Below, in pieces: positions 43,333 through 62,160 of a stretch of DNA of 64,000 nt (position 1 is its first letter; every line of letters starts with the position of its first letter). The notes below the pieces were generated by a model that was given only the letters and a program-made list of their open reading frames with translations, ran no database searches and was not told the DNA's origin. Position numbers and translations under genes: made by a program. The stretch lies in NCBI GenBank assembly GCA_003134435.1, contig PLBE01000136.1, positions 1 through 64,000 on the forward strand, given 5' to 3'. The stretch comes from Acidobacteriaceae bacterium (GTDB lineage: Bacteria > Acidobacteriota > Terriglobia > Terriglobales > Acidobacteriaceae).

Positions 43333-43464
43333 ATCAGGCCGCGTTTGCCGTATTACGCGGGTAACTCCTGCTTTCTCTCTAAAGTCATTCTCCAGGCAGC
43401 CGATGAAGTTTACAGGGCGGAATTGAGCCTGCGCTTCAACGCGAACGCCATCGGGAGAATATCT

Positions 43465-44733
43465 ATGTTAACTGCGGCAGTTTCCAGCTCATCGATTTTT
43501 CAGGAACTCCAGAGCTTCTACCAGACGCGCCAAGCCGACGTGCAGCAACTGGGCAGCTCACTTAAAAGTGGGGACCTGACCGGCGCTCAGAAAGCTTACA
43601 CGGCCCTGGCCGTGCTTGGGGAAAACGGCCCCTTCGGAAACTCCGAACCGTTTTCCAAGTCCAGTCGCGCCCAAGCCTTTAATGCCGTCGGCGAGGCCCT
43701 GCAAGCGGGCGACCTGACGCGGGCGCAGACAGCCTTTGCCACGCTAACCGGCAACCAGAGCAACGCCAGTGCTGAAGCACAGGCGACCCCGGCCGCGATC
43801 GTGACCCTCTCCAACCAGAGCGCTCAGGCGAGCACGGCGACCGCGACTAGCGGCGCTTCTTCGATTTACCAGCAACTGCAAGCCTTCCGGCAACAGCGGC
43901 AAGCCGATGTCGCGCAACTTGGACAGGATCTGCAAGCCGGCAACGCGACCGCGGCCCAGCAGGATTTCAATACTTTGACCGCACTCGGCCAGACTGGGCC
44001 CAACCGGGATGCGGGACCCTTCCAGCAAGCGGCTCGCGCCCAGGATTTCCAGACCATCGGCACGGCGCTGCAATCCGGCAATCTGGCGGCCGCGCAGACG
44101 GCGTTCGCCAATCTTGAAGCAGCGAATGGCACCAATTCCGTGGTCCCGGAGCCCGTCGTACCACCTGTCGTGCCGGCTGTCGTGCCTGCTATCGTGCCGC
44201 AGCCAGCCACGCAGACGCCGCCGGTCGAGGAAATCGTCATCAACCTGGGAGCGCCATCCAGCGCTAACGCGTCGAGCCCATCGTCGAGCCCCTCAACGAG
44301 CCCCCCCAACGGATCGACCGTGCCGGAGATCGTCATCAACCTGAACCAGGGGAGCAGTTCCGCCTCCGGAACCGCCGGCTCCGGAACTACCGGCATTTCC
44401 GAAATCGATATCAATTTTGGCGGACCCTCGGCCAATAGCGCTTCGAGCACATCGACAGCCGCCACCACTCCGGAACTCGTGATCAATCTCGGCCAGGCGA
44501 ACGGATCTTCGTCCGCGAATCCCGAGGAGCTCACCATCAATCTCGGTTCCGGCGGCTCCGGAGCGCAGGTCACGATTGGCGCGAATCCGGCGCAGAACGG
44601 CAGCACTGCCGCGCAAGTCACCCTAAACCTCCAGCCCCAGACCAACTATGAACTCTTGATTAACCTGCTCAATTCAACAGCCACGAACCAGACTCAAAGC
44701 ACCTCGAGCAACGCCCTGAGTGTGAGCGCATAG
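43465..44733 (+). CDS. repeat protein: two helical repeats plus a low-complexity tail with EIVINLG motifs
   Basis: 422 residues from ATG 43465 (ribosome binding site GGGAG); the frame upstream adds 40 residues without support. Two related 86-residue helical repeats (9-94 and 132-217) share FQ.LQ.F.Q.RQADV.QLG, SGDL..AQ.A and GPF. Then a Pro/Val-rich bridge and a Ser/Ala/Gly-rich tail carrying EEIVINLG (255-262), PEIVINLN (287-294), SEIDINFG (312-319), PELVINLG (336-343), EELTINLG (354-361) and YELLINLL (395-402). No signal peptide. The helical repeats occur in other soil bacteria as uncharacterised proteins (recollection); the INL tail I do not recognise. Confidence 0.75.
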   Translation: MLTAAVSSSSIFQELQSFYQTRQADVQQLGSSLKSGDLTGAQKAYTALAVLGENGPFGNSEPFSKSSRAQAFNAVGEALQAGDLTRAQTAFATLTGNQSNASAEAQATPAAIVTLSNQSAQASTATATSGASSIYQQLQAFRQQRQADVAQLGQDLQAGNATAAQQDFNTLTALGQTGPNRDAGPFQQAARAQDFQTIGTALQSGNLAAAQTAFANLEAANGTNSVVPEPVVPPVVPAVVPAIVPQPATQTPPVEEIVINLGAPSSANASSPSSSPSTSPPNGSTVPEIVINLNQGSSSASGTAGSGTTGISEIDINFGGPSANSASSTSTAATTPELVINLGQANGSSSANPEELTINLGSGGSGAQVTIGANPAQNGSTAAQVTLNLQPQTNYELLINLLNSTATNQTQSTSSNALSVSA

Positions 44734-44749: not shown

Positions 44750-44788
44750 CCCAGGTTCGCGTCCGTTCTTTGGACGCTAACCTGGGGA
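44750..44788. repeat. long inverted repeat (CCCCAGGTT.GCGTCC/GGACGC.AACCTGGGG)
   Basis: Fifteen of sixteen stem positions pair, around a loop GTTCTTT. Not followed by a T run. Confidence 0.8.
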
Positions 44789-44814
44789 CGCTAACCTGGG
44801 GACGCTAACCTGGG
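44773..44814. repeat. 14-bp tandem repeat GACGCTAACCTGGG, 3 perfect copies
   Basis: Three identical head-to-tail units; the first shares its bases with the right arm of the inverted repeat at 44750-44788. Confidence 0.92.
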
Positions 44815-44890: not shown

Positions 44891-45458
44891 TTGCCGACCT
44901 ACTCGCCGTCCACCAACCAATTCACGATTTCCGGCGCGAACGTGAGTTATGACGGCAATGGGAACCTCCTCACCGACAATCTGAACAGCTATACCTGGGA
45001 CCCGAACTGGGGCAACCCCGCCAGCGTCAACACCACGAACTTGATTTATGATGCTCTGGGCCGCATGGTCGAGCAGCAGAATGGATCGGCCACCACCGAG
45101 ATCCTCTACAGCCCAGCGGGTAAAACGGCGCTCATGAACGGACAGACGTTGACCAAGGCGTTCCTGCCGCTGCCCGGCGGCGCGACCGCCATCTACAACT
45201 CGACCGGGCTGGCGTATTATCGGCATTCGGATTGGATCGGCAGTTCGCGCCTGACTTCGACCCAGGCGCGAGGCTTGTATTCCAGTTCCGCCTACGCTCC
45301 GTTTGGCGAGCAGTATGCTGTCTCTGGCGCATCGGACCCATCCTTCACCGGCCAGAATTCGGATACCGCCAGTACCCTGTACGATTTCACCTTCCGCGAG
45401 CACAGCCCCAGCCAGGGCCGCTGGATTTCTCCCGACCCGGCCGGGGTGGCCGCCGTTC
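44891..45458 (+). pseudogene. 3' fragment of an rhs gene (YD-repeat core end), 5' part missing, frame broken at 45458
   Basis: Codes for the C-terminal end of an RHS/YD-repeat shell: ANVSYDGNGNLLTDN, YTWDPNWGNP, NLIYDALGRMVEQQNG, TEILYSPAGKTALM, GLAYYRHSDWIGSSRLTS, SSAYAPFGEQYAVSG and GRWISPDPAGVAAV. The expected continuation DPTNPQTWNRYAYVGNNPVALIDPLGLD is in the next frame, so one extra base stands at about 45457-45458 (GTTCGATCCC for GTTGATCCC). There is no start codon with a ribosome binding site, and the hundreds of upstream YD repeats of a complete RHS protein are absent. A remnant or donor fragment rather than a complete effector. Confidence 0.85.
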
Positions 45459-46241
45459 GATCCCACCAATCCCCAGACCTGGAACAGATATGCCTACGTG
45501 GGCAACAACCCGGTCGCGCTGATCGACCCGCTCGGCTTGGATGATTGCGCCTGCGATTGGTGGTGGGACGGCGGCGGCGATGGAGGTGGGGGTGACGGCA
45601 GCGGAGGCGGAGGATATTCAGGTTTTTGGGGCGGGATAGGAGAAGGTCCCAATGACCCACCGCTGCCGCTCCCGTGTCAAGAAGCTGACTTTTGTATGTC
45701 TGTGTGGGTTCCCGCGGATCCCGCGTCTTCGGGAACGGGGTACGCGAGCCCCGGACCGGATCAATCCTACAACTGTGGCATCTTCTGTTTGTGGCAGCCA
45801 AATATCGGAATTCCGGAGCAGGGCTCGGGCGGAGGCGGCGGAGGTGGAGCCGCAAACAACGGGCAACAGCAGAAACGTACTGCAGCGCAGTGTGCAGGCC
45901 AAGCGCTAAAGGCGAAGGGGTTATCCATTGCGCTTGACTTTGCTGGTTCAATTCCGTTCGTTGGCAACTTGGTTTCGGGAACTGCGGCGACTATTAAAGC
46001 TGTTGACGGAGTCGTCTTATTGGGTGGTGGAGTTGTGGCGGCTGGTAATGCCTTGTTAAATTCTGACGCCGCTGGCGGAGCTGCTGCAGGTACAAGCATT
46101 GTCCTTGGAGTTACAAATATGGCTATTGGGGGCACAGAGGCGATACCTCTCCTAGGCAACGCCGTCTCTTTTGGCGTGGGAATATACGATGCTGCTGGTG
46201 CGTATAGCACGTATCAACGATGCATGGCGGGGACTAACTGA
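45459..46241 (+). CDS. RHS C-terminal tail 1 (after DPLGLD), hydrophobic effector-like domain
   Basis: Same reading frame as DPTNPQTWNRYAYV and DPLGLD, then a Gly/Asp/Trp-rich linker, the in-frame junction AANNG (45849-45863), QQQKRTAAQCAGQALKAKG and a Gly/Ala-rich tail with likely membrane helices: LDFAGSIPFVGNLVSG, IKAVDGVVLLGGGVVAAGN, GTSIVLGVTNMAIGG. RHS proteins carry variable toxins behind DPxGL. This tail has no known nuclease or ADP-ribosylase motif; a membrane-active toxin is a possibility. Followed after 17 nt by a membrane-protein gene that could be its immunity factor. Confidence 0.7.
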   Translation, partial: DPTNPQTWNRYAYVGNNPVALIDPLGLDDCACDWWWDGGGDGGGGDGSGGGGYSGFWGGIGEGPNDPPLPLPCQEADFCMSVWVPADPASSGTGYASPGPDQSYNCGIFCLWQPNIGIPEQGSGGGGGGGAANNGQQQKRTAAQCAGQALKAKGLSIALDFAGSIPFVGNLVSGTAATIKAVDGVVLLGGGVVAAGNALLNSDAAGGAAAGTSIVLGVTNMAIGGTEAIPLLGNAVSFGVGIYDAAGAYSTYQRCMAGTN

Positions 46242-48689: not shown

Positions 48690-50735
48690 TCATTCCTGGG
48701 AGCTTGGGCCCAGGCGCTGGGCGGCAACTTTTTCCCTTGCGGCCTCGGCCTTCCGGCCGAGCTGGCGATAGGCATCCGACAAGATTATGTGCGGCTGGGG
48801 CGCCTTGGGTACGAGCGCCGCCGCGTGCTCCAGCTTATCCAGCGCGGCTTCGGGATGTTTTGATGCTACCAGGATTCGGCCTTCGAGCAGCAGGGCAGCG
48901 TAATGGTTGGGCATGACTTCCAAGACTTTTTCGCATTCCGTAACTGCCTCCCGGGCGCGGTCGGTCTGGACATAGGCGGTTGCCAGCATGAGGTGCGCTT
49001 GATCCGAACGCGGAGCTTTCTCCACGACGATTTCCAACTCGGGAACCGCCGCCGTCACGTCTCCATTCGCAAGCAAGGCCACGGCCAATTGAAAATGGGC
49101 ATCCGAAGAATCCGGGTTTAGCTGGACGAGTTTGCGCAGAACGGGCAGCGCTTTCCCGTACGCTTTCAGCGACAGGTAGCTTCTGCCAAGCTGCGTGTAA
49201 GGAAGCGGCGCTTCCGGATCCTTCTCAAGCAGTTGTTGCAGCAAAGGGATTGCTTCACGATAGTGCTCTTCCTCCACCAGAAAGTTGGCCCGATTCGACA
49301 GGTTGGCAATCTCGATTTTGTCTTTCGGATCCGGGCCTGTATCCTGCGCATCGAGGTTGGAGCCGCGGGCATCTGTGGCCACGTAGCCTAATGCCGCCAG
49401 TTTTTGCTGCGCCTCGGGATCAACGGCCGACTTAGGCGCTTCTTTGTCGCTCCTCGTCCTCTGGCGGAACGCGGACAATTCCCCGGCCAACGTGGTCGCG
49501 ACGGCCGTCGAGGCGGACGAGAGGTCATGCTTGGAGTTCGGGTCCGCGGTTTGGTCGTAGAGTTCCGGCCGCTGGGCTCCAATGTAGAGGTATTTACCGG
49601 TGCGGAGGGCGCGCAGCGAACTCCAATGATAAGCGCGGTGCGGATAGTCGGTCTCGGAATAGGCTGGCCGGTCGGGGGCTGCGAACGCAGTCGTCTCCAG
49701 CGCCGCCGGCTTCCTGAGACCTAAAAGCGACTCCCCTTGCACTTCCGGTGGAACGCCGATTCCGGCCGCCTCCAGAATGGTTGGCAGCACGTCGACCAGA
49801 CCCACGCGAGTGTCAATTCGCTTTCCCGCCCATGACTTTTCAGATAGTGACTTTGCAGAGTATGACTTGTCAGATAATGATCTTTCCGACGATCGTTTTT
49901 CTGTCGAATCCTCCGCCGGCAGCTTGATCAACAGCGGCACGTGGATAGTTTCGTCGTAGAGAAACACTCCGTGAGTGTCTTCTCCATGCTCTCCGAGCGC
50001 TTCGCCATGATCGGCCATGACTGCGATGATGGCGCCATCGTAGAGCCCTCGAGCCCGCAACTGGGTCAGAAACTTTCCGACTGCCGAATCCGCGTAGGCA
50101 ATCTCTCCATCGTAGGGCGCGGCAGGATATCTGGTTTTGTAAGGCTCCGGCGGATCGTACGGATGATGGGCATCGTATAAATGCACCCACATGAAAAACG
50201 GGCCTTTCGGATGCTGGTTCAGCCAGGTCAGGGCATGTGCGACCACTTCGCCGCCGCGGCGCTCCGTCGTGTGGTATCGATCTTCTCCCGGACCGCGCTG
50301 GCGAAAACCCGCGTCGTAGAGATCAAATCCGCGGTCGAACCCGGGAGCAAACTGTGAACTGGGGTCGAGCACCATCGCGCCCACAAAGGCCGCGGTGACA
50401 TACCCGTGCGCTCGCAGGATGGCTGGAGCATAGGGCAGATCCGGCGCCAGCGGCACTTGAAAATCGCTTACGTGATGAAACTGCGGGTAGGTTCCGGTGA
50501 GAATGGTGGCATGGGACGGGGCGGTCAGCGGAACTTGCGAATAAGCGCGAGTGAAGATCGCGGACTGGCGCGCCAGTGTGTCGAGATTCGGCGTCAAGCC
50601 TCGTTTCGAGCCGAGGAATCCCATACGATCGGCTCGAACCGTATCGAGGGTGATCAAAATGATATTGGGCGGCGAGGCCGCCAGCGCGCCGGCCGCCAAA
50701 CACACCAGGCAGAGCAACTGACGAATTGCAGACAT
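48690..50735 (-). CDS. sulfatase-fold (alkaline phosphatase superfamily) protein with TPR tail, copy 1
   Basis: 681 residues, signal peptide (LLCLVCLAAGALAA). Sulfatase-like domain starts PPNIILITLDTVRADRMGFLG with the first metal-binding Asp; the catalytic segment is LTAPSHATILTGTYPQFH, in which the formylglycine Cys of true sulfatases (CxPSR) is Thr, so a different nucleophile must act. Further: VHLYDAHHPYDPPEPYKT, ADHGEALGEHGEDTHG and LRALRTGKYLYIGAQ. An insertion at about 49834-49908 codes RSLSD, KSYSA, KSLSE, KSWAG pentads. C-terminal TPR repeats (IPLLQQLLEKDPEAPLPYTQLGRSYL and others). Exported; substrate unknown. Confidence 0.88.
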   Translation of the reverse strand: MSAIRQLLCLVCLAAGALAASPPNIILITLDTVRADRMGFLGSKRGLTPNLDTLARQSAIFTRAYSQVPLTAPSHATILTGTYPQFHHVSDFQVPLAPDLPYAPAILRAHGYVTAAFVGAMVLDPSSQFAPGFDRGFDLYDAGFRQRGPGEDRYHTTERRGGEVVAHALTWLNQHPKGPFFMWVHLYDAHHPYDPPEPYKTRYPAAPYDGEIAYADSAVGKFLTQLRARGLYDGAIIAVMADHGEALGEHGEDTHGVFLYDETIHVPLLIKLPAEDSTEKRSSERSLSDKSYSAKSLSEKSWAGKRIDTRVGLVDVLPTILEAAGIGVPPEVQGESLLGLRKPAALETTAFAAPDRPAYSETDYPHRAYHWSSLRALRTGKYLYIGAQRPELYDQTADPNSKHDLSSASTAVATTLAGELSAFRQRTRSDKEAPKSAVDPEAQQKLAALGYVATDARGSNLDAQDTGPDPKDKIEIANLSNRANFLVEEEHYREAIPLLQQLLEKDPEAPLPYTQLGRSYLSLKAYGKALPVLRKLVQLNPDSSDAHFQLAVALLANGDVTAAVPELEIVVEKAPRSDQAHLMLATAYVQTDRAREAVTECEKVLEVMPNHYAALLLEGRILVASKHPEAALDKLEHAAALVPKAPQPHIILSDAYRQLGRKAEAAREKVAAQRLGPSSQE
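49834..49908. repeat. 15-bp degenerate tandem repeat in the copy 1 sulfatase gene
   Basis: GACTTTTCAGATAGT, GACTTTGCAGAGTAT, GACTTGTCAGATAAT, GATCTTTCCGACGAT and a fifth weaker unit; on the coding strand pentapeptides of the K-S-x-S-E/D type. Confidence 0.8.
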
Positions 50736-50753
50736 CGTGGCAAGTTTCAGGTG

Positions 50754-52856
50754 TCACTTCCCTCCCAGTCGTTGTGCCTCGAATTGCTCCCGCGCGGCAT
50801 CGTCAAATCTCCCCATCTTCAAATACGCCTGGCTCAGCAGGAGGTGCGGCTCCGCCTCTTTCGGTTGCAGCGCCGTCGCTTTCTTGAGTTTCGGTAGCGC
50901 GGCTGTCGCGTCGCCCGAAAGCAGGAGAGTTCGCCCGAGAAGCAGGTTGGCTACATAATCGTCGGGGGCAACTTCGAGAACCTGGTCGTACTGTTTGATG
51001 GCTTCCGGAACCCGGGCGGTCCGGGTATAGGCGTTGGCCAGCATCAGGCGGGCGCGCTCCCATCGCGGTATCTTGGCAACGGCCAACTCGAGCTCGGGTA
51101 CGGCCGCCGCGAAATCCTGGCTCGCCACCAGCGCTCCGCCCAGCTCATAATGTGCGTCTGCCGACTCGGGATCCAATTGCGCGTACTTGCGCATCACCGG
51201 AACCGCTTGGGTATAGTCGTTCATCAACATGAAGCACTGGCCCAATTTCATGTACAGAGGGGCCATGCCAGGTTCTTTCTCGGTCAGTTGCCGCAGGACC
51301 GGGACAGCTTGATCACAGTGTCCTTCTTCGCGAAGCATATTGGCGCGATGCAGCAGGTTGCCCACCTCGATCTTATCCTTGGGATCCGCGCCCAGATCGT
51401 CTTTCCCGGGTCCCGCGGCATTGGGATCGGTGGCGACATAGCCGAGCGCCGCCAATTTCTGCCGCGCTTCTGGACTAAACGATGCCTTGGGAGTTTCCCG
51501 GCTGCTGCTCGTCTGCTGGCGGAACGCATCGAGCCGCCCAGCCAGCGTGCTGGTTACGGCTGTGGAGGTGATAGACAGGTCATGCTCGGCTTTCGGGTCA
51601 GCCGACTGATCATAAAGTTCCTGCCGCGGAGCCTTAATGTATAGGTACTTTCCCGTGCGCAGGGCGCGCAGCGGACTCCATCCGTAAGCATCATGACCAT
51701 AATCGGTCTCCGCGTAGGCTTGGCGATCAGGCGCGGCCGTCCGGCTCTCCACTTGAGCCTTGTCTTCCGCGGACTCTGGCTTCGGCTCCATTAAGGCCAG
51801 CAGCGATTCGCCCTGCACCTCCTGCGGAACCGCAATCCCCGCCGCCTGCAGAATTGTCGGCAGCACATCCACCAGTCCAACCCGCGCGTCCACTCGCCTT
51901 CCTGCCGCAAGCGCTTGCGCACGGTCTCTTTCTGACAAGTGCATTCCCGCCGAGGCCGCTCCGGGCAACTTGATCACCAGCGGCACGTGGATGGTCTCGT
52001 CATAGAGAAAAAACCCGTGCGTCTCTTCTCCATGATCCCCCAGCGACTCACCGTGATCCGCCATCAGCGCAATGACCGCGCCATTGTAGAGGCCGCGTCG
52101 CCGCAACCCGCTCAAGAGCTTTCCCAATGCCGAATCCGCATAAGCAATCTCCCCGTCGTAGGGCGCGGACGCGTACTTCGTCTTGTAGGGCTCGGGAGGG
52201 TCGTAGGGATCGTGCGCATCGTAGAGATGCACCCACATGAAGAATGGGCCACGCGGATGCTTCGTCTCGGCTTGGTTCAATCGCGTCTGGTTTAACCCAG
52301 TCTGCCGCGATGCAGTCTGGTTCAACCCCACTTTGTTCAACCAGGCCAGAGCATGCGCCACTACTTCTCCGCCCCGGCGCTCAAAAGAGTGGTAGCGGTC
52401 CGCTCCCGGGGACGACTGGGCAAAGCCCGCGTCGTAAGTGTCGAATCCGCGTCCAAAACCGGGAACCAGCACTTCGGGGTCTAGGGCCAGCGCACCGACA
52501 AACGCCGCCGTGCGATATCCCTGGGCCTTCAGGATCGCAGGCGCAAAAGGAAGACTCTCCGCCAGCGGCACGCCAAAGTCGTTAACCTGGTGGAACTGCG
52601 GATAGGTGCCGGTAAGAATCGTCGCGTGCGACGGCGCCGTCAGCGGCGCCTGAGAATAAGCTCGAGTAAACACGACGGAAGCGCGGGCCAGCGCGTCGAG
52701 ATTCGGCGTCAGCCCGCGCTTTGATCCCAGAAACCCCATACGGTCGGCGCGCGTCGTGTCTATTGTGATCAGAATAATGTTCGGAGGCGGAGCCGTCCCC
52801 GCCAGCGCGCTCGCCGCCAGGCACAGTACGCAGGCCCATTGCCGAATCACCGACAT
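50754..52856 (-). CDS. sulfatase-fold protein with TPR tail, copy 2
   Basis: 700 residues, signal peptide (VLCLAASALAG). Tandem paralogue of the gene at 48690: NIILITIDTTRADRMGFLG, LTAPSHATILTGTYPQFH (again Thr for the formylglycine Cys), MADHGESLGDHGEETHG, LRALRTGKYLYIKAP and C-terminal TPRs. Where copy 1 has LNQHPKGPFFM, copy 2 has an insertion of about 25 residues made of GLNQT-like units (LNKVGLNQTASRQTGLNQTRLNQ) at 52268-52345. The pentad insertion of copy 1 is missing here. The 18-nt gap suggests the pair is cotranscribed, copy 2 first. Confidence 0.88.
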   Translation of the reverse strand: MSVIRQWACVLCLAASALAGTAPPPNIILITIDTTRADRMGFLGSKRGLTPNLDALARASVVFTRAYSQAPLTAPSHATILTGTYPQFHQVNDFGVPLAESLPFAPAILKAQGYRTAAFVGALALDPEVLVPGFGRGFDTYDAGFAQSSPGADRYHSFERRGGEVVAHALAWLNKVGLNQTASRQTGLNQTRLNQAETKHPRGPFFMWVHLYDAHDPYDPPEPYKTKYASAPYDGEIAYADSALGKLLSGLRRRGLYNGAVIALMADHGESLGDHGEETHGFFLYDETIHVPLVIKLPGAASAGMHLSERDRAQALAAGRRVDARVGLVDVLPTILQAAGIAVPQEVQGESLLALMEPKPESAEDKAQVESRTAAPDRQAYAETDYGHDAYGWSPLRALRTGKYLYIKAPRQELYDQSADPKAEHDLSITSTAVTSTLAGRLDAFRQQTSSSRETPKASFSPEARQKLAALGYVATDPNAAGPGKDDLGADPKDKIEVGNLLHRANMLREEGHCDQAVPVLRQLTEKEPGMAPLYMKLGQCFMLMNDYTQAVPVMRKYAQLDPESADAHYELGGALVASQDFAAAVPELELAVAKIPRWERARLMLANAYTRTARVPEAIKQYDQVLEVAPDDYVANLLLGRTLLLSGDATAALPKLKKATALQPKEAEPHLLLSQAYLKMGRFDDAAREQFEAQRLGGK
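52268..52345. repeat. short repeat insertion in the copy 2 sulfatase gene (GLNQT units)
   Basis: Three related units with GGTT.AACC.AGAC on the coding strand produce GLNQT, GLNQT and RLNQA. Absent from copy 1. Confidence 0.7.
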
Positions 52857-52958: not shown

Positions 52959-53663
52959 TCATTTGGCTGCAGGAGTCGCCTTCGCGGGCGCCTTCTTAGG
53001 GTGCTCTGGCAGGGCTTCGCAGGACTTCGGATGGATAAAAAGGGTCGGATCCTGGGGACCCAAGACCACATTCTTATATCGAATCGTCGCGCCGTGCCCG
53101 TCGGGCCGCAAAAATTCGACCTTGATCGGAAATCCCTGCAGATCCTCCGCCTCCCAAAGTCGCATTTTTACTGTGGAGGGCACCGGCTTCGCGGAAGATA
53201 TCGTAACCTCCTCAATCTGGCAGGAATGCCCGTTCAGCGTCTCCTTTCCGGTGGCGGTACGCTCCACCGTGGAGCCGGGCTTGAGCGCGGAAAAGGGAGA
53301 CGCGCGAATGAACGGGTGGGAGTCGTGCACGCAGGGCGCAGTCGAGAGGCCGAACGTCTCGCGCGTGCTCAAGTCGGTGATGAAGTAGCCGTGTCCCTCC
53401 GGGCCTTCCATCCTCATCAGCTTACCGGAACGGTAAATGTGCCCTTCTGCAGTGCCTTCGCCCGGCTCCATGATGCTTCCCACCATCACGGCGGAAAATT
53501 CCGTGAACGCATCCAGCGGGAACTGGGGTTTAGCGGCCGATGCCGCGGCCTGTCCGGTCGCGTCCCTTTCCTTTTCTTTCTGTGCAACTTCGGGCGGTGC
53601 CTGAGCCTGCAACGACGCTACGACACAAACCGCCAATAGGATCGCGCTGATCAACCGAAGCAT
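52959..53663 (-). CDS. secreted protein of unknown function (DUF4412-like)
   Basis: 234 residues from ATG 53663 with GGAGGG upstream. Signal peptide (LISAILLAVCVVASLQA), then a beta-rich domain: EFSAVMVGSIMEPGEGTAEGHIYRSGKLMRMEGPEGHGYFITDLSTRETFGLST, RTATGKETLNGHSCQIEEVTISSA, MRLWEAEDLQGFPIKVEF, and a Pro/Lys/Ala-rich end. The layout (metal-free lipoprotein-carrier-like sheet with 'GK.MRME') resembles DUF4412-type periplasmic proteins. Exact role unknown. Confidence 0.75.
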   Translation of the reverse strand: MLRLISAILLAVCVVASLQAQAPPEVAQKEKERDATGQAAASAAKPQFPLDAFTEFSAVMVGSIMEPGEGTAEGHIYRSGKLMRMEGPEGHGYFITDLSTRETFGLSTAPCVHDSHPFIRASPFSALKPGSTVERTATGKETLNGHSCQIEEVTISSAKPVPSTVKMRLWEAEDLQGFPIKVEFLRPDGHGATIRYKNVVLGPQDPTLFIHPKSCEALPEHPKKAPAKATPAAK

Positions 53664-53712
53664 CCTTAATCCCTCCGAGGCAAATAAAGTCGACATGCCT
53701 TCAACACTACAG

Positions 53713-53764: not shown

Positions 53765-54280
53765 CTACTTCTTGTTGATGACTGCCTGATTATGCGCAGC
53801 GCCGAACGAGGTCGTCGTCCCGCCATGGACCTTGTCGCCCAGGGTGGTGGTGAGGTACCCGTAGTTGCCGAGGTAGTCGCTGCCGCCGCCGAAGGTGAAG
53901 TAGAAGGACCATCCCCACTTCGGGTGATTGCCCGACGCGGCCTTCAACTTAGTCACCCAATCAATTTGCTCGCCGCTGACGCCGATGTATTGCGCGTCGA
54001 ACGTGCTGTCGGCGAGGGCATACACCGTGCCTACTACCGGTTGCTGGGTGCTATAGGGAATCGAGGTCTTGAGTCCGACCATTACTGCGTCGAGCGGAAG
54101 ACCGCAGCTCTTGAGAACGTGAGCCCCCGCAGCATATGGCGCACTTACGAGAAGGGATTCGTAATCGCAATATTGCGTGGATCCGTCATAACTCAGAAAT
54201 CCGAAGCTATAGCTCTGCCCGAAAGCAGCGCTGCAGCCGAGCACGAGAAGCGTGATTACCGCCAAGCTTTTCAGTTTCAA
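53765..54280 (-). CDS. small secreted protein of unknown function
   Basis: 171 residues from TTG 54280, preceded by GGAGG (8 nt before). Signal peptide LAVITLLVLGCSAAFGQ, then SYSFGFLSYDGSTQYCDYESLLVSAPYAAGAHVLKSCGLPLDAVMVGLK, with three Cys, and a Gly/Tyr-rich end (WGWSFYFTFGGGSDYLGNYGYLTTTLGDKVHGG). Not recognised. Own terminator, so monocistronic. The longer frame to 54316 lacks a ribosome binding site. Confidence 0.75.
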   Translation of the reverse strand: MKLKSLAVITLLVLGCSAAFGQSYSFGFLSYDGSTQYCDYESLLVSAPYAAGAHVLKSCGLPLDAVMVGLKTSIPYSTQQPVVGTVYALADSTFDAQYIGVSGEQIDWVTKLKAASGNHPKWGWSFYFTFGGGSDYLGNYGYLTTTLGDKVHGGTTTSFGAAHNQAVINKK

Positions 54281-54555
54281 GGTGTTTCCTCCTGGAAGTT
54301 TTGTTCGCGAACCCAAAAGTTAAGCAACCCAGCTAAGTGACGCTTGGCTGAGCGAGCGTAACAACATGTACTGCCGGAGAAGCTTAGCGCATTTTCAACC
54401 TAAGTCAAGCCAATTAAACCGATCCTGCCAAAAAAGTAAACCGATGCGGCGGAGGCAACCAGGAAAGCAATAGACGAGATAAAAACTTTGCGCACTTGCC
54501 GCAAAATATAGCGCTGACCAGGCAGCCCGACTCCGCCCGCAAGCGGTTCAGCGGG

Positions 54556-57500
54556 CTAGAAAGTAATTCGCACTCCAAATTCCATCTGCCGCGGAGCGCC
54601 ATTCTCATACGTGCCTGAACCGGGGAGGACCCGGTCCAGCCGCGAGGTGCAGTAAGCCGTCGCACTGCCGCAGTATCCCGCCGAACTTGCGTTGTTCAGC
54701 GCCGTGCCCGGCGCTGCGTTCAACACGCCGCTCAACTGGTTGCCCGCGCTGCCGAAGTTGGCCCAGTTGAATACGTTAAATACCGCCAGGCTGGGCTCGA
54801 TCCTTACCCGCTCCCCCACCTGGAATGGCCGGCTCAAGCGCAGATCCATGGTCTTCAGCCAGGTCGCCTGCGCAAAATGGTTTGGCAGCCCCTGCCCGCC
54901 TTGAATCGTAGGCGCGTAGGCCCCTAGCGAACTCAATTGATCCTGGCGGAACAACCCGCTCGCCAGCAGCGAACTACCCGCCGGCGTCACCTGCCCGGCA
55001 TACGTGCTGTCGTAATGCTGAATGACCTGGGTCAACTTGCCGGTGGAATACTTTCCCGTGCTCCCGATAAAAGTCTGCGGCAGAAGATCGCCCACCGTGC
55101 CATCGCCAGTGAGATCGCTGCGGAAGATTTCCCCTGCGACTCCGCCGCCATCCTGCTCCGGAACGCGAACACTCAGCGGCAGCGGCGAAGCCAGATGCGC
55201 GATCAGCGCCAGTCTCAACCCCTGCGGCAAGTCCGCCGTCGGCGTGAAGGTGAGCTGGTGCGTCCGGTCCAGCCCCGATGCGCCGAAATGCTTCAGGTGG
55301 GGCCTAATGTAGTCTTCCGCCACACTCATCACTGAATAGTCTCCGCCGCGGCCCTCGGGCGCGGCGATGTTGCTGCGATACCGCGAGAACGAATACGCGA
55401 GCGACACCTCCAGCCGACGCAGGTTTCGCAGTGGATTCTCCGCCGTCATTCCGTGGTACGCCAGGTGCACGCCTTCATACCTCGATCGGCCGCTCGGAAA
55501 ATACATGATGTTCGGTCCCACCGCCGGATTGACGCCGCCGAACGCCGCCGGTTGTTTATTCAACACGGAGCACGGAAACGGGCCGCAGAAGGCGCTCCCC
55601 GAATCCAGCCCCTGCCGCGCAAAGTCGGTGATGCTCGCTCCCGGCACTCTGGTCAAATAGCAATCCACCGCTGCCTGCGAACTGGCGCCGGCGTAGAGTG
55701 CCGGACCGCATCCCACCGCTCCCACCGTCGTCGTGATCGCCGATAAACCCGCATCGATGTTGAGGAATGGATTGTTGTTCGTACCCACCAGCGGCGTTCC
55801 CGCATCACCCACCAGATTGGTGTCAATCCCCAGCGGAAACTGCGTCCCAATCTCGCGCACATAATCGAAAGAGAATGTCCCGCGCTCCCCGATCTGATGC
55901 TGAATGCCCCCGCTCATGTGAACCACGCGCGGCGTCCTGAAGCCGGGCGCGAGCAGGCCGCCAAAATCCGCCAAGCTGTTGGCCAGCGAATACACGTTCT
56001 TGCCGCCCGTCATCAGCGCCTGCGTCGATTGAAACTGTGACTGCAAGTCCTGAATCAACGACGAAACCGCATTGATCGGCTGCCCGCAAATCCCGGTCCC
56101 GATGTCCACGCCGTCCACCGAATTCACCACCGATCCGTCTGGAAACAACACCGCCCCCGTCGGACACAACGTCAGGCTGCGATTGTATTGGCCATTCGAC
56201 AAGCGGTTGACCCGATCCTGATAAATGTTCTGCAGCAGGAAATTGTCATAGAACATTCCCCCGCCTATCCGTACGACCGTCCGGCCATTGTGTCCCGGAT
56301 CCCACGCCAAGCCCGCTTGTGGAGCAAAATCGAAGTTCGGCTGGTTGACACTCTCGCCCAGACTCTGGTGCGCGCTCAAGTCGTTGGGCAGAATCCCGAA
56401 TTGATCCAGAATCAACCCCGTCGTGCACGGCGGACTCTTCACGATGGTGGTATTGATCGCCGAACAGGGCAGAGCCCCCAGGTCGCTGTCGGTGCGCCCG
56501 CTGTCGCGCACATAATTCAGGCCAATACTAATGTTGAGGTTCGGAAGCGCCTTGAACGTATCCCCTACATAACCTTCGAGACGGGTGTCGAAGTGTCCTC
56601 CGTTGGGCCGGTTGAAGGCCGAATTCTCGCTGAAACTCCCCAGGCCGTTGAAAATCGTGACCGTGCCCACCGGATAGTTCAGCGGATTGCCGGCCGCTCC
56701 CCGAGGATCGCCCGGGTAAAGCGGCAACAGGTTGGGATCGCTGTTGATCGCATTGATCACATCCAGCCCGTCGGAACTGGTCACCGACGGCCCGTAGTTT
56801 CCCGGGGCAAAGAAATCTCCCTGCGCGATGCGATGAATCACTCCCCCAAAACGTACAGTGTGATACACGTTGTGAATCGTGCTGCTGTCGTAGCGCCCGA
56901 AAAGGTCGCGCTGAATGGTCTGCCGCGGGCCCGCCACGCTCGGCCCCAGCGCATACGATCCAAGCTGCATGTGGAAAGGCGCCGCAGCGAAGATCGCCGA
57001 ATCCTGCAGATCCGGAGTAATCGCGTTCACCATCTTCTGATAGCCGAAGCGCGCGCTGCTCTGGAATCGTCCATGATTCCAATCCAGCCCCAGCACCGCC
57101 CCCGGAACATTGAGCTGGTTGCGGAAAGTCGACTGGCTGTCCGGCGGCCCGATCTGGTTGGCGTTGTCATACGTAAGCCGCGCAAATCCCTTCATGTTTT
57201 CGTTGAAGTTGTAATCCAGCCGCGCCGACACCATGTTCTCGCGAAAATATGCGCTCCGGAGACCTGTCCCATTGAACGCCGGGAACCCAAGTTCAATCGG
57301 CAGAACTCCATCCTGCTTGCTGCGTTCCCCGCCAATGAACAAAAACGCCTTGTCCGCGATCACTGCGCCGCCCACGCCAAATCCATACTGCTGACGGCTG
57401 TACTTTGGACTGCCCGACGGAAAGCCCGCCATGCCGGCATCCCGGTCCTGCAGGTTGCCAAAAATATTGCCGTGCCATTCATCTCCGCCGGAACGTGTCG

Positions 57501-58245
57501 TCACCCGCACCGCGCCCGCCGCATTCAATGACTGAAACACTTCCGGAGTCACCCGCGATACAATCACCTCGCGCACGGCCTCGGCGGGCAGGGTCAGCGT
57601 GGCCCCGCCCTTCGTCTCATCCATCGCCTCGACTTCGTCGAAATCGTAGTGCGTCGTGCGTCCCAGTTGGCTCTCGATCGAGAGCGATTGCGTTCCGCCC
57701 TTTCCCGGATCGTAAACCCTGCCATCTACCACCTCGACCCCCGGCTCCAGGCCTCCTGCACTCAGAAGGTTCCGCCCGTCGATCGGCTGCACGTCGGGAA
57801 CGTCACCGCTGAACCTGCTCTCCAGCCGCGCCGGCCCCGGATTGATCCGTTCCAGCCTGAAATCCGCCGTGACCGCTGTACCCACCACCACCGTCACGCC
57901 GCGCTCGACCGGGAGCTTGTCCTTGCCTTCGATCCGCACCACGTAGGCGCCCGGCGGCAGCGGTTCGCTGACATACGTCCCGTCCTTGCCCGAGCGCGTC
58001 ACTCCTCGCGTGTCGGTGGCCGTGGAACTGTAGAAGACCCGCGCCCCTTCCACCGGGTTGCCCACGTCATCCAGCAGTTTGCCTTGAACCGTGCCGGTGG
58101 TCGGATTCTCCGAGGTCATTTCCTGCGCGCCCAGAGACGGCGTGAGCGCAAGGAACGCGATGACAACCAGCACCGCCAGAGTCAGCGACAGCGTCAGAAC
58201 TGGGGGCAGAGAACGACGAATATGCAAGCCTGAGCATTCCAACAA
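54556..58245 (-). CDS. TonB-dependent receptor, Oar-like, with N-terminal carboxypeptidase-regulatory domain
   Basis: 1229 residues from TTG 58245 (AGGAG 9 nt before); ATG 58353 is an upstream alternative adding 36 residues. Signal peptide LTLAVLVVIAFLALTPSLGAQ, carboxypeptidase-regulatory-like domain (GTVQGKLLDDVGNPVEGARVFYSSTATDTRGVTRSGKDGTYVSEPLPPGAYVVRIEG), plug region (VREVIVSRVTPEVFQSLNAAGAVRVTTRSGGDEWHG) and a large outer-membrane beta-barrel ending MEFGVRITF with C-terminal Phe. Expected to take up large organic substrates using TonB energy. No adjacent SusD-like gene, as typical of Oar-type receptors. Confidence 0.9.
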   Translation of the reverse strand: MLECSGLHIRRSLPPVLTLSLTLAVLVVIAFLALTPSLGAQEMTSENPTTGTVQGKLLDDVGNPVEGARVFYSSTATDTRGVTRSGKDGTYVSEPLPPGAYVVRIEGKDKLPVERGVTVVVGTAVTADFRLERINPGPARLESRFSGDVPDVQPIDGRNLLSAGGLEPGVEVVDGRVYDPGKGGTQSLSIESQLGRTTHYDFDEVEAMDETKGGATLTLPAEAVREVIVSRVTPEVFQSLNAAGAVRVTTRSGGDEWHGNIFGNLQDRDAGMAGFPSGSPKYSRQQYGFGVGGAVIADKAFLFIGGERSKQDGVLPIELGFPAFNGTGLRSAYFRENMVSARLDYNFNENMKGFARLTYDNANQIGPPDSQSTFRNQLNVPGAVLGLDWNHGRFQSSARFGYQKMVNAITPDLQDSAIFAAAPFHMQLGSYALGPSVAGPRQTIQRDLFGRYDSSTIHNVYHTVRFGGVIHRIAQGDFFAPGNYGPSVTSSDGLDVINAINSDPNLLPLYPGDPRGAAGNPLNYPVGTVTIFNGLGSFSENSAFNRPNGGHFDTRLEGYVGDTFKALPNLNISIGLNYVRDSGRTDSDLGALPCSAINTTIVKSPPCTTGLILDQFGILPNDLSAHQSLGESVNQPNFDFAPQAGLAWDPGHNGRTVVRIGGGMFYDNFLLQNIYQDRVNRLSNGQYNRSLTLCPTGAVLFPDGSVVNSVDGVDIGTGICGQPINAVSSLIQDLQSQFQSTQALMTGGKNVYSLANSLADFGGLLAPGFRTPRVVHMSGGIQHQIGERGTFSFDYVREIGTQFPLGIDTNLVGDAGTPLVGTNNNPFLNIDAGLSAITTTVGAVGCGPALYAGASSQAAVDCYLTRVPGASITDFARQGLDSGSAFCGPFPCSVLNKQPAAFGGVNPAVGPNIMYFPSGRSRYEGVHLAYHGMTAENPLRNLRRLEVSLAYSFSRYRSNIAAPEGRGGDYSVMSVAEDYIRPHLKHFGASGLDRTHQLTFTPTADLPQGLRLALIAHLASPLPLSVRVPEQDGGGVAGEIFRSDLTGDGTVGDLLPQTFIGSTGKYSTGKLTQVIQHYDSTYAGQVTPAGSSLLASGLFRQDQLSSLGAYAPTIQGGQGLPNHFAQATWLKTMDLRLSRPFQVGERVRIEPSLAVFNVFNWANFGSAGNQLSGVLNAAPGTALNNASSAGYCGSATAYCTSRLDRVLPGSGTYENGAPRQMEFGVRITF

Positions 58246-58345
58246 AGTGCCACTCTCCTGGGAGCGGAACCTCAAGTAGAACCGGGACGCGATTCCGCGT
58301 TTAAGGATCCTAGTTTGCTTCTGCAACAATCGCATGCAACTGTTT

Positions 58346-58375
58346 CGCTGCATTGCTTACCGCTGCATTGCTTTC
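58346..58375. repeat. 15-bp direct repeat CGCTGCATTGCTTNC, 2 copies
   Basis: CGCTGCATTGCTTAC followed by CGCTGCATTGCTTTC, at the alternative upstream start of the TonB receptor gene. Confidence 0.7.
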
Positions 58376-58578: not shown

Positions 58579-61500
58579 CTAGAAGGTGAACTTAACCCCC
58601 AGACGGATGTTGCGCGATGCCTGGAACAGATAAGGCTTTCCGTATTGGCTGTTGATCGTGTTGCCTTCGCCAAACAGATTTTGCTGGTTCAGCAGGCTCT
58701 GAACATTATAGGGGCGCTCGGAGTTTGCATAATATCCTTGGCTGGCAACGAACGAGCCATTCGGGGACATGAAGCTCTGCACGATGTTCGAGTCGATCTG
58801 CTGACCATATGCGGTTACCGAATGTTGGTTCAGCAGGTTGGTGAAGGTTACGGAGAAGCTTAAATCATTGCGCTCCGTGACTTTGTAGTTTTGCTGAATG
58901 TTGAAGTCGCTCTGAATATACCAGGGCGTGCGGAAGGTGCGCGGCGAACCCACAGTGACCGCGCCGCTGGTTGGATCCTCGGTAACGTCAACCCATTTCC
59001 CGCGGTTGACGATATCGACCGGCCACGCGCCCGGAGAGCTGTAGCCCACATCGGCGTAGCTGGTCTCCGGCGTGCCGCTGTAAAGCACCTGGAACAGCCC
59101 GAAGTCCGTATTCAGCTTGTTGTGGAATTTTCCCCACGGCAGCTCATAGTAGGCATAGCCCTTGAATGCGTTTGGACGATCCGTCGGCAACAACCCGCTT
59201 GAAGAACCACCGTTCGCATTGAACTGGAAGTAGGGCTCGTCAAACGAACGGCTGTTGTTCGGGGCGTTACGCCCGCCGCCGCCGTCCGCGATGTCGGTCG
59301 AGGTCAAGCCCGTGTAGTTTCCACGCAGCCTGCTATAGGTGTAGGATGCCATCGCGTACCAGTGATTGCTGGTCGTCTTGGTCAACCTCAGTTCCAGGCC
59401 GTCGTAGCTGCGGGCGCCCGGTATCAGGCCAGCCGGGGGGCACAGTCCCGAATTCGGATCGCAAATCTGGGGCACTCCGTTCTGCTGGTACGAAGCGCAG
59501 GCCGTCGGATTCGACGGAGAGCATCCATAGAGGAAGTTCCAGAATCCCGCGAACGTGCTGCCTACTCCCTGACCGGGGTTGTTGATAACAAAAGTTTCTC
59601 CGATGTTGGGATTGTAAAGGGCTGAGTCTTCGATCACGTGATCCAGCCGGCGGCGATCCCAGCGGGCTTCGAATGCCAGGTTCTTCTTGATCTGATAGTC
59701 GACGCCGAACACGGACTCATGCTGCTCGTACGGCTTCAGTCCGGGTGCGACACCTTCCTGGGTGGCGCTGCAAGTGGAACAGGTGGTTGGGAAAGCGCGG
59801 AAGTTCGTGTTCTCGATAAAGGTCAATCCAGCCGGCGTGGTCCCGCCCGCGAAATTGGCCTCGGTTGTGGAATCCGTCCCTGGGCCGCCGCAGAAACGCC
59901 CGGAGCTATTGAAGACGGGGTTGATCGTGCTTAGGTCCGACGTGTTCAAGGCGTATACGCAATTCTGCCAGTACTGGCCGCCGAACGAACTGATCGCCAG
60001 GTTCAGCTTCATGATGTCGTAGAACCGGCCGTAGCTGCCGAAGACCTTCATCCGGCCATCCTTAAAGACATCCCAAGCCGCGCCGATACGAGGAGCAATC
60101 TTGTCGCCCCAACCGAAGTTGATGGGACGGTTTTGCGCCCCGGGGGCTCCGCCTTCACCCGGCAGATACTCCTTATCGAACCGCACTCCGGCGTTGATGG
60201 TAACCCCATGACCGATCGTCCACGCATCCTGGGCAAAAATACCGTGATTGAAGCTGGTCGCCTTGCCGAGAGAACCGAAGTCCTCAATGGTGATATATCC
60301 ATACTGGCCGGTGCAGGAACCATAAATTTCGGCCAGGGCCGCGCAGGCAGCACCACCGTTAGGACTCGACGAAGAGTAAGTTGCCGAGGGGTTATAGTCG
60401 GCGTTCTCGGGATTCCCGTCGCCCACGTTGAAGAGGGTAGCCGGCTCATTCCAGTGTTGGGAAATATCGTTCGACAACCGGTTCAACTGGTAGCCGAACT
60501 TGAAGTTGTGCGTACCCCACCATCCGCTCTTAAACCAAGCGATATCCTGGTCAAACTGGATCGCTTTATCCGCATTGCGCTGCGTGTCGTTCTGGTTCTG
60601 GGCCGCGTTGAAATAACCGGTTGATTGCTGCAGGGAAGATGGTAGCGGGTTATCGAAGGCATCATTAGCCCCCTGGCCGCTGTCCTGCCACAAAGTCAGT
60701 TCGCCCGTCGTGGGGAAGCCGAAGTCGTGGTAGTTCTGGAAATAGTAACCAAAGCGGGTGGTGGCGACCAGACGCGGCGTAATCGTAATGTCCGCGCCGA
60801 AATTGGTGGTGATATTGGGCGCCGAATACCCCAGATTGTGGGCATAGGCGAACTGCGGCACTCCAGTGTTGAGACACGGCGTGCTCGAGTTCGCGAAGCA
60901 CCCGGTGGAGAAGTTGTACAAGCCGGTCGTCGAATCGGAAGCCGGAAGGTTTTCTCCGTTCTGGCGCTGATATTGATACAGCCACGAGCCAAACACACGA
61001 ATCTTCTGGGAGACGCTGGCGTCAATGCGGGCCGTGGAGAAGTAGGTTTGGGTGTTGCGGCCGAACTTCGTTTCCCCACCGTTGCTGGGACCGTAGTTTA
61101 CGGTCCTTTCCAGATCGTTCCACTCCGGATTGAAGCCGAGGAAGAAGAAGACGCGATCCTTCAGAATCGGACCGCCCAGGTTGAACCCCGGATAAACGTC
61201 GCTGGTCTTCGGTCGAATCGGCTGCAGCAACTGGTAGGGTACGTCGATGTTGTTAACGCCAGTCGTGGACGAAGCCGTTCCGTTTGGATCGTAACGTTGA
61301 AAAGCCACCGGTGAACCGTCCAGTGCCTGGTTCTCGAACTGGCCAAATACCGATCCGTGGATGTTGTTGCTGCCCTTCTTCATGATGACGTTGACCACGC
61401 CACCGAGCGAACCGCCATGCTCCGCTTCAACGCCGGAGGTCTTGACCTGCACTTCTTCAATGAAATCAAAAGGCACGTTGCTGTGCGAAAAACCACCCGC

Positions 61501-62160
61501 GAGGTCCGCCGTTTCCTGACCTTCAACCAAATAGGAGTTCTCCGAGTCGGAACCGCCGGCAACCATGAAGCCGACGTTATTTCCGTTGCTGCCGTTGCCC
61601 GGCGAGGTGCCGCCGTTGCCCGTGCCGCCGTTATAAGGGTTGCTGCCTGCCAATGGTTCATTGCGAGCCGACGGTGCGAACTGAATTACAGACTGAAACG
61701 ACCGTCCGTGGGGAACATCCTGCACCACGTCCTGGGTAATGTTGGTCTGCGTGGTCTCGGTGGTCACGTCGATAGTCGACGCCGCTGCGTTCACTTCCAC
61801 CACCGTCGAACCCGCGCCCACTTCGAGCTTGATATCGACCGAAGGAAGGTGGCCGACTTCGATAATCAGGCCATCGCGCTTCACCGTCGAGAAACCTTGC
61901 GCGGAGACAGTCAGCGTATAGTTGCCCGGCGGCAGGTTGGCAAAACGGTAGTATCCGGCGCTGTCGGTCTCCGATTCCTTCTTGCCGACCAGCGACACAC
62001 CCGTCAACTCGACCTTCGCGTGCGAGACGACCGCGCCTGTCGGATCCTTTACATTGCCCTGCAAGCCGCCCGTGGTTTCCTGGGCGAACGCGCCCGTCAC
62101 CACCAGCGCGAGAACAAACACAAAGGTCAAAATCCGGGGAAACATGCGAACCTTAGTCAT
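58579..62160 (-). CDS. TonB-dependent receptor, Oar-like, copy 2
   Basis: 1193 residues, ATG 62160 with GGAGGG 8 nt before. Signal peptide ILTFVFVLALVVTGAFAQ, carboxypeptidase-regulatory domain (GGLQGNVKDPTGAVVSHAKVELTG..GYYRFANLPPGNYTLTVSAQGF), plug (VDVTTETTQTNITQDVVQDVPHGRSFQSVIQFAPS; FDFIEEVQVKTSGVEAEHGGSLGGVVNVIMKKGSN), and a long barrel ending RNIRLGVKFTF. Different sequence from the copy at 54556 but same family; not tandem-identical. Own terminator, and a dyad at 62331 upstream. Ligand unknown; such receptors are expanded in Acidobacteria. Confidence 0.92.
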   Translation of the reverse strand: MTKVRMFPRILTFVFVLALVVTGAFAQETTGGLQGNVKDPTGAVVSHAKVELTGVSLVGKKESETDSAGYYRFANLPPGNYTLTVSAQGFSTVKRDGLIIEVGHLPSVDIKLEVGAGSTVVEVNAAASTIDVTTETTQTNITQDVVQDVPHGRSFQSVIQFAPSARNEPLAGSNPYNGGTGNGGTSPGNGSNGNNVGFMVAGGSDSENSYLVEGQETADLAGGFSHSNVPFDFIEEVQVKTSGVEAEHGGSLGGVVNVIMKKGSNNIHGSVFGQFENQALDGSPVAFQRYDPNGTASSTTGVNNIDVPYQLLQPIRPKTSDVYPGFNLGGPILKDRVFFFLGFNPEWNDLERTVNYGPSNGGETKFGRNTQTYFSTARIDASVSQKIRVFGSWLYQYQRQNGENLPASDSTTGLYNFSTGCFANSSTPCLNTGVPQFAYAHNLGYSAPNITTNFGADITITPRLVATTRFGYYFQNYHDFGFPTTGELTLWQDSGQGANDAFDNPLPSSLQQSTGYFNAAQNQNDTQRNADKAIQFDQDIAWFKSGWWGTHNFKFGYQLNRLSNDISQHWNEPATLFNVGDGNPENADYNPSATYSSSSPNGGAACAALAEIYGSCTGQYGYITIEDFGSLGKATSFNHGIFAQDAWTIGHGVTINAGVRFDKEYLPGEGGAPGAQNRPINFGWGDKIAPRIGAAWDVFKDGRMKVFGSYGRFYDIMKLNLAISSFGGQYWQNCVYALNTSDLSTINPVFNSSGRFCGGPGTDSTTEANFAGGTTPAGLTFIENTNFRAFPTTCSTCSATQEGVAPGLKPYEQHESVFGVDYQIKKNLAFEARWDRRRLDHVIEDSALYNPNIGETFVINNPGQGVGSTFAGFWNFLYGCSPSNPTACASYQQNGVPQICDPNSGLCPPAGLIPGARSYDGLELRLTKTTSNHWYAMASYTYSRLRGNYTGLTSTDIADGGGGRNAPNNSRSFDEPYFQFNANGGSSSGLLPTDRPNAFKGYAYYELPWGKFHNKLNTDFGLFQVLYSGTPETSYADVGYSSPGAWPVDIVNRGKWVDVTEDPTSGAVTVGSPRTFRTPWYIQSDFNIQQNYKVTERNDLSFSVTFTNLLNQHSVTAYGQQIDSNIVQSFMSPNGSFVASQGYYANSERPYNVQSLLNQQNLFGEGNTINSQYGKPYLFQASRNIRLGVKFTF

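Follow-up and report, generated by a model that had tools for sequence, protein, structure and literature searches.

Two tandem genes in the 64,000-nucleotide stretch of Acidobacteriaceae DNA analysed here (the window) encode proteins with a sulfatase fold and C-terminal TPRs, in which threonine occupies the position that sulfatases use for their formylglycine-forming residue. The same position holds threonine or serine throughout the family, and because the rest of the metal-phosphotransfer active site is conserved as well, the threonine-type state marks an ancient kind of enzyme and not the remains of a sulfatase. The genes of the family cluster with outer-membrane porins, and each of the two copies carries a repeat insertion that is new relative to its nearest sampled relatives. 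Taken as a whole, the reading in which these proteins are active Thr-nucleophile enzymes that bind a partner through their TPRs, serve porins and carry near-neutral inserts is considered somewhat probable.

Gene pair and domain architecture

Copy 1 (48690..50735, minus strand) encodes 681 amino acids, with PF00884 at residues 23–326 and C-terminal TPRs from about residue 470, and copy 2 (50754..52856, minus strand), which lies upstream and is separated from copy 1 by 18 bases, encodes 700 amino acids, with PF00884 at residues 25–341 and the same architecture. The two proteins are 62% identical over 710 alignment columns. PF00884 scores 157.6 bits in copy 1 and 150.1 bits in copy 2 (cut-off 25), several TPR models lie above their cut-off in both copies, and a helical solenoid is present in the structure models; an earlier, sequence-only reading of this DNA had described the pair as tandem sulfatase-fold/TPR proteins, and this description holds. 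PF01663 (type I phosphodiesterase) also exceeds its Pfam gathering score in both, at 50.9 bits in copy 1 and 54.5 bits in copy 2 (cut-off 23), far below PF00884. By inspection, the N-termini of both copies are signal-peptide-like.

The source genome contains four full-length genes of the TPR/PF00884 type, namely the two in the window, one on contig C194 and one on contig C256, and a shorter relative of the enzyme genes is found on contig C61. At E <= 0.001, 45 stretches of this genome match the enzymes, many of them in the TPRs only. In the genus, a match to the enzyme protein at E 1e-77 or better occurs in 20 of 24 genomes. For the pairs formed by copy 1 and its G022 orthologue, copy 2 and its G001 orthologue, and copy 1 and copy 2, dN/dS is 0.14–0.16 with dS of 1.1–1.6, which is near saturation; across all branches compared, dN/dS is 0.14–0.21, again with dS near saturation.

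The nucleophile position across the family

In both copies, the motif TAPSH sits at the (C/S)xPxR position of sulfatases. In copy 1 it is encoded at 50511..50525 (minus strand), with Thr71 in the nucleophile slot and His75 in the Arg slot, and in copy 2 at 52626..52640 (minus strand), with Thr73 and His77 in the corresponding slots. In the family profile alignment, the T of TAPSH lies opposite a Ser in the AslA motif SSPTR and the H lies opposite the AslA Arg, and alignment with 7oz8 puts TAPSH at the same position, in agreement with the earlier statement that TAPSH replaces CxPSR in both proteins.

It was found that, in 135 aligned homologues, the nucleophile slot holds Thr in 129, Ser in 6 and Cys in none, and that the Arg slot is His in 134. 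After removal of near-identical rows (four pairs, some being one contig present twice), Thr is present in 125 and Ser in 6 of 131 sequences, and the picture is the same in 131 and in 124 rows. By record title, the homologues come mostly from Acidobacteria/Terriglobia, with some from Planctomycetota (including one Phycisphaerae record), one from Gemmatimonadetes and one from Aminicenantes. This 135-sequence alignment (A2) leaves out one homologue with a missing N-terminus (L031). The 109 wider homologues were collected with two peptide patterns containing HGE..G.HG and Ex[TSF]HG, frames being kept if they covered at least 370 profile positions (109 of 121 domain rows); for these 109, the conservation of E270, H275, E277 and H280 is therefore partly built in, and D33, T73, H77 and H215 lie outside the patterns. 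In the 27 genus sequences, for which the search query was the entire protein instead of a pattern, the same active-site residues are invariant or nearly so. One homologue, L028, reads TVVSS in place of TxxSH and is the sole one of the 135 without His at the Arg slot.

The sulfatase signatures PS00523 ([CS]-x-P-x-R) and PS00149 (G-K-x-[FYWMK]-[HL]) match none of the 135 homologues, and the AslA control matches both; the GK-H stretch of PS00149 reads VG[AS]-x-[VI]-type in the TPR/PF00884 family. It has been reported (PMC5066984) that Thr is unable to give formylglycine, that 30 of the 59 Pfam PF00884 seed members are threonine-type, and that threonine-type PF00884 proteins are not to be considered functional sulfatases without experimental evidence. 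As judged from their sequences, copies 1 and 2 are not formylglycine sulfatases and would obtain no formylglycine by the known route, as the sequence-only reading had also concluded. Its implication that these two proteins had themselves lost the cysteine did not hold, and decay of a sulfatase in this lineage was rejected, the nucleophile being Thr or Ser in all 135 homologues.

Gene cluster and association with porins

Six genes on the same strand occur in the window in the order OMP2, OMP1, 183-aa protein, 245-aa protein, copy 2 and copy 1. OMP2 (58581..62160, minus strand) and OMP1 (54556..58353, minus strand) are CarboxypepD_reg plus OMP_b-brl_4 outer-membrane proteins, OMP1 being Oar-like; plug and TonB_dep_Rec have no match in OMP1 or OMP2 of the window, and both match in the porin beside the C194 paralogue. 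The 183-aa protein (53765..54316, minus strand) has a TTG start, no Pfam family, and homologues of 34–41% identity in the clusters of three relatives. The 245-aa protein (52959..53696, minus strand) has a signal-peptide-like N-terminus and no Pfam family over cut-off, and Pfam and PDB sequence searches gave sub-threshold matches only (DUF4412, E 0.055; Ependymin, E 0.044).

The full six-gene order is kept in only some relatives. A counterpart of OMP1 at 69% or more adjoins the enzyme or sits a few genes off in four of ten genus stretches, namely in G001, in G003, in G008 and at one G018 locus out of three. The 245-aa protein is present at 45% or more in four of the stretches and the 183-aa protein in three. 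In G003 and at that G018 locus, OMP1 is followed by the two small proteins and by two enzymes, as in the window, with one extra ORF in G003, and two of the ten stretches (G022 and G006) have neither the porins nor the small proteins.

Across all loci, a CarboxypepD_reg/beta-barrel porin is present in 50 of 83. Of 107 family genes, 31 have a porin no more than 600 bp away, compared with 4 of 241 control genes from the source genome, each 300 aa or longer (Fisher p 8e-14); these counts exclude two of the 109 family genes, which have fewer than 400 codons, and take no control gene from the window. Within the genus, the corresponding numbers are 10 of 23 family genes and 6 of 179 control genes of G014 for porins within 4 kb (p 3e-7), and 4 of 23 and 3 of 179 for porins within 600 bp (p 0.004). 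Other genes in those genus loci have a porin within 4 kb in 17 of 61 cases, a neighbour rate that is expected if clusters form and also if porin-rich regions attract many genes. As for orientation, where porin and enzyme are no more than 1.5 kb apart, the porin lies upstream of the enzyme, on its strand, in 22 pairs and downstream in 4, and the two genes are on opposite strands in 14.

Some further features were seen near the enzyme genes. A protein with the repeat FxxxRQAD-QLGxxLxxGDLxxAQ is found, with similarity judged by eye, in the window (43345-44733), in G001 (L165:11584-12613) and in G003 (L172:7234-8506). By raw count, two other clusters recur near family genes (L119, L011 and others), a PF01663 phosphodiesterase-type one at 18 of 83 loci and an FG-GAP/UnbV_ASPIC one at 15 of 83. 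At 44891-46241 of the window, an RHS/YD-type core (YDALGRM, RYAYVGNNPVALIDPLGL; family assigned by eye) extends over two overlapping frames and is probably the end of a broken or frameshifted RHS gene, and a perfect 14-bp tandem repeat of 3.1 copies lies at 44772-44814, downstream of a 462-aa ORF.

Active site and proposed catalytic mechanism

The metal-ligand equivalents D33, D267 and H268 are conserved in 134, 131 and 133 of the 135 homologues, respectively, and the extra residues E270 and H280 in 134 each (both partly built in by the search patterns) and H215 in 123, this last residue being missing in 12. E. coli EptA aligns with the family through the Thr in GTATAVS, His385 of SHGP, and DHGESLGE...LHG. 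Through this alignment, D33/D267/H268 correspond to the Zn1 ligands of MCR-1 and E270/H280/H215 to its Glu468/His478/His395, with the residue-for-residue step from EptA to MCR-1 made by motif. The Zn1 site of MCR-1 is Glu246/Thr285/Asp465/His466, phospho-Thr285 is present in the crystal, and the extra His395, His478 and Glu468 vary in choline sulfatase, as described in the MCR-1 study (PMC5216409). Since the metal ligands and the His/His/Glu set of phosphoethanolamine transferases are largely conserved, we propose that these proteins are exported, metal-dependent phosphodiester hydrolases or transferases with a Thr nucleophile.

Under this proposal, both copies would be active, exported, metal-dependent enzymes of the alkaline-phosphatase superfamily, in which Thr71 or Thr73 acts directly as the nucleophile to form a phospho-threonine intermediate; the phospho group would then be handed to water, as in a phosphodiesterase, or to another molecule, as in a transferase of headgroups or phospho groups. 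A partner protein may be bound by the C-terminal TPR solenoid, and copies 1 and 2 may act in the service of the beta-barrel outer-membrane proteins encoded next to them in the cluster.

The structure model of copy 2 has a pLDDT of 91.3 and a pTM of 0.90, and Thr73 begins a helix in it. The structural matches listed for this model include 6hr5 (Z 38.8, 354 aligned, 2.6 A), 4uph (Z 33.6), 9gve (Z 33.5), 2vqr (Z 33.5) and the YejM periplasmic domain 6vat (Z 32.2, 313 aligned, 2.8 A); S1 sulfatases and phosphonate monoester hydrolases rank highest among those listed and YejM scores only slightly lower, and the absence of EptA, LtaS and MCR chains among them counts neither for nor against any reading. 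Over the whole domain, hhalign of single sequences gives E 3.5e-29 with AslA and E 2.9e-13 with EptA, which places the family nearer to S1 sulfatases. The family thus seems to work in the Thr-type phosphotransferase manner on a sulfatase-like body, and by the tests made it is a member of neither group.

It is quite possible that the proteins are plain nutrient-scavenging phosphodiesterases or phosphonate hydrolases that feed the porins, and not transferases acting on the cell's own envelope, which would be a branch of the main explanation and not its opposite. Adjacency to porins, the soluble exported form without the EptA transmembrane domain, the good fit to the phosphonate monoester hydrolases 9gve and 4uph, and the PF01663 score over cut-off in both copies are all consistent with scavenging, whereas phosphonate monoester hydrolases use formylglycine and the His/His/Glu set matches that of the transferases. 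The YejM match, together with the TPRs as binding modules, would also suit a YejM/PbgA-like pseudo-enzyme or sensor (YejM is not known to be a hydrolase), whose sulfatase fold binds a lipid or glycan and whose TPRs signal or scaffold without catalysis; this is unlikely, however, as the metal and nucleophile positions are conserved in 91–99% of the 135 homologues, which is unusual for a non-catalytic fold, and dN/dS is about 0.15. A sulfatase after all, with Thr or water replacing formylglycine, is highly improbable: the closest solved structures among the matches listed are S1 sulfatases, and a choline sulfatase with unmodified Cys still turns over many times according to PMC6189696, but 134 of the 135 homologues have His in the Arg slot, PS00149 is absent in all 135, and Thr cannot give formylglycine (PMC5066984). 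The Thr-nucleophile phosphodiester enzyme is the preferred reading.

Repeat insertions in exposed loops

The insertion of copy 1 (49833..49907, minus strand, about residues 277–301) consists of SxSEK-like pentads and that of copy 2 (52260..52334, minus strand, residues 175–199) of GLNQT-like pentads, both with a 15-bp period in the DNA. The inserted residues are the lowest-confidence part of both structure models, pLDDT being below 50 at residues 276–299 of copy 1 and at most of residues 189–199 of copy 2. By eye, the copy 1 insert (49833-49907) looks A+T-richer than the surrounding gene. Copy 1 has 25 extra residues in the loop after KLP; the 24 extra residues of copy 2 follow the helix that ends in WLN and precede the strand GPFF. 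Across the 135 sequences of alignment A2, copy 2 has 35 residues in the loop W172-F206, with a median of 11 and a next longest of 26 that is unrelated in sequence, and the loop P298-L328 has 41 residues in copy 1, with a median of 16 and a next longest of 31, which is copy 2 itself. Loop lengths and the 15-bp period thus bear out different repeat insertions at different places, as claimed earlier, with one detail to be corrected: copy 2 also has an extra stretch, non-repetitive and different, at the insertion site of copy 1.

At a lag of 15, the insert DNA matches itself at 48 of 78 positions in copy 1 and 37 of 69 in copy 2, values reached by none of 20,000 codon shuffles in each case, in a test that is somewhat favourable because the segment limits were chosen after the repeats had been seen. 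TRF reports the copy 1 array only (3.5 copies, 71% matches), the copy 2 array being too diverged for it. Native flanking codons resemble the repeat units, with TGGTTGAAC ahead of the copy 2 repeat and GCGGGAAAGCGA after the copy 1 repeat. The copy 1 repeat was also considered as a dispersed element, which was rejected, as a 27-base pattern with up to 3 mismatches matched only its own array (3 places).

A tree of 20 rows places copy 1 beside G022 (100/99) and copy 2 beside G001 (100/97), without settling how these pairs, G008 and G006 are related to one another. The G022 and G001 orthologues have no insert, nor has any other of the tree rows. The copy pair would therefore predate the species splits, provided that no transfer occurred, and the inserts would be younger; since both orthologues are without inserts, the repeats arose after the split of copy 1 and copy 2 and after divergence from the nearest sampled species. 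The earlier claim that the repeats grew after duplication is supported by these pairings, and the alignment of homologues at the insertions did not find the same inserts in the 135 sequences. Inheritance from the ancestor of the pair was rejected on the nearest orthologues, the tree and the loop lengths. In the preferred reading, the inserts would have grown recently and in frame within exposed loops, each seeded by the native codons around it; they are probably close to neutral in effect and would be unrelated to the missing cysteine. It is hardly credible that the inserts are errors of assembly or sequencing, or that they are ancestral and have been lost in other lineages: the assembly has 261 contigs and a contamination estimate of 4.42%, and the inserts occur in one genome only, but both are in frame, their units have diverged and they are sited where homologues vary in length, and loss would have to have happened many times in parallel, since neither the nearest orthologues nor any of the remaining rows of the 20-row tree have them.

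Local repeat growth, as proposed earlier, is not peculiar to the duplicated pair: the loop following KLP varies in length among homologues, and a comparable, variable insertion is found in an unrelated protein of the genus. This is a 552-aa membrane protein on contig C114 (L157:5624-7282 = G000:C114:25627-27282, minus strand) with the pentad-like units RWNEN-RGNED-RWNEI in one loop; of its 22 matched relatives, 11 from the same genus were aligned, and in these the site, next to a native RWKEILPP-type stretch, differs in length and in its units. The pattern suggests growth of exposed loops by short in-frame duplications in this genus. TRF finds 13 arrays of 15-bp period in 617,032 bases of the source genome, several of them outside convincing genes, 5 in 197,503 bases from stretches of the genus that were selected for their enzyme genes, 9 in 1,033,081 bases of wider relatives and 1 in 30,003 bases of E. 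coli, numbers that are suggestive of a genome-wide excess and too small to claim one.

Significance

Sulfatase-family models would count these multi-copy proteins as degraders of sulfur esters. If they are in truth phosphodiester enzymes tied to porins, sulfatase counts for acidobacterial genomes are too high, and a function in the envelope or in phosphorus use has gone unnoticed. The inserts, for their part, are a small, datable case of in-frame loop growth. PMC5066984 has already advised in print against calling threonine-type PF00884 proteins sulfatases. Less has been described of the TPR-fused, porin-linked group, and in open-licence PMC texts no paper on TPR-fused members or on the porin link was found, which does not show that none exists. 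A wider proposal is put forward tentatively and may well prove wrong, namely that these proteins constitute a family of their own, widespread and made up of soluble, exported phosphotransferases with a Thr nucleophile and a sulfatase body, TPR-tethered, labelled sulfatase by databases and working with Oar-like CarboxypepD_reg porins, for example by adding a phospho group to porin cargo or envelope glycolipids, and that exposed loops in the genus diversify by in-frame 15-bp repeat growth.

Comparison with known systems

With S1 sulfatases such as choline sulfatase and AslA, the present proteins share the fold, the overall sequence, the TPxLD, ILTG and VDVxPT landmarks and the Asp/His metal ligands. 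They differ from them in having Thr/Ser, His and no GK.H where sulfatases have a Cys/Ser that becomes formylglycine, an Arg and the GK.H signature, and the conserved THG His and the TPR tail are features of the present family. The type I phosphodiesterase/nucleotide pyrophosphatase family PF01663, which has a two-zinc ligand set, is similar in that both copies exceed its Pfam cut-off, and different in that PF00884 scores about 100 bits higher. Other threonine-type PF00884 proteins, such as LTA synthase and the phosphoglycerol transferase OpgB, have Thr at the nucleophile slot, as here, and OpgB aligns weakly over the domain; these are membrane proteins not known to carry TPRs, with a metal site whose first ligand is Glu. 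Phosphonate monoester hydrolase/PehA has the same fold (2vqr and 9gve, both Z 33.5), and the PehA model NF045661 matches weakly, at 87.7 bits in copy 1 and 99.8 bits in copy 2, below its cut-off of 900; according to PMC5066984, phosphonate monoester hydrolase uses formylglycine, whereas the present enzymes have Thr. The phosphoethanolamine transferase model NF028537 gives 24.0 and 21.7 bits, below its cut-off of 500. With EptA and MCR-1, the family shares the Thr nucleophile slot, the Zn1-type ligands (here with Asp for Glu), the SHGP-type His, the DHGE Glu and the HG His. In contrast to their N-terminal multi-pass membrane domain, the catalytic domain here begins at residues 23–25 after one hydrophobic helix, and the present enzymes carry a TPR tail and are nearer to sulfatases over the whole domain.
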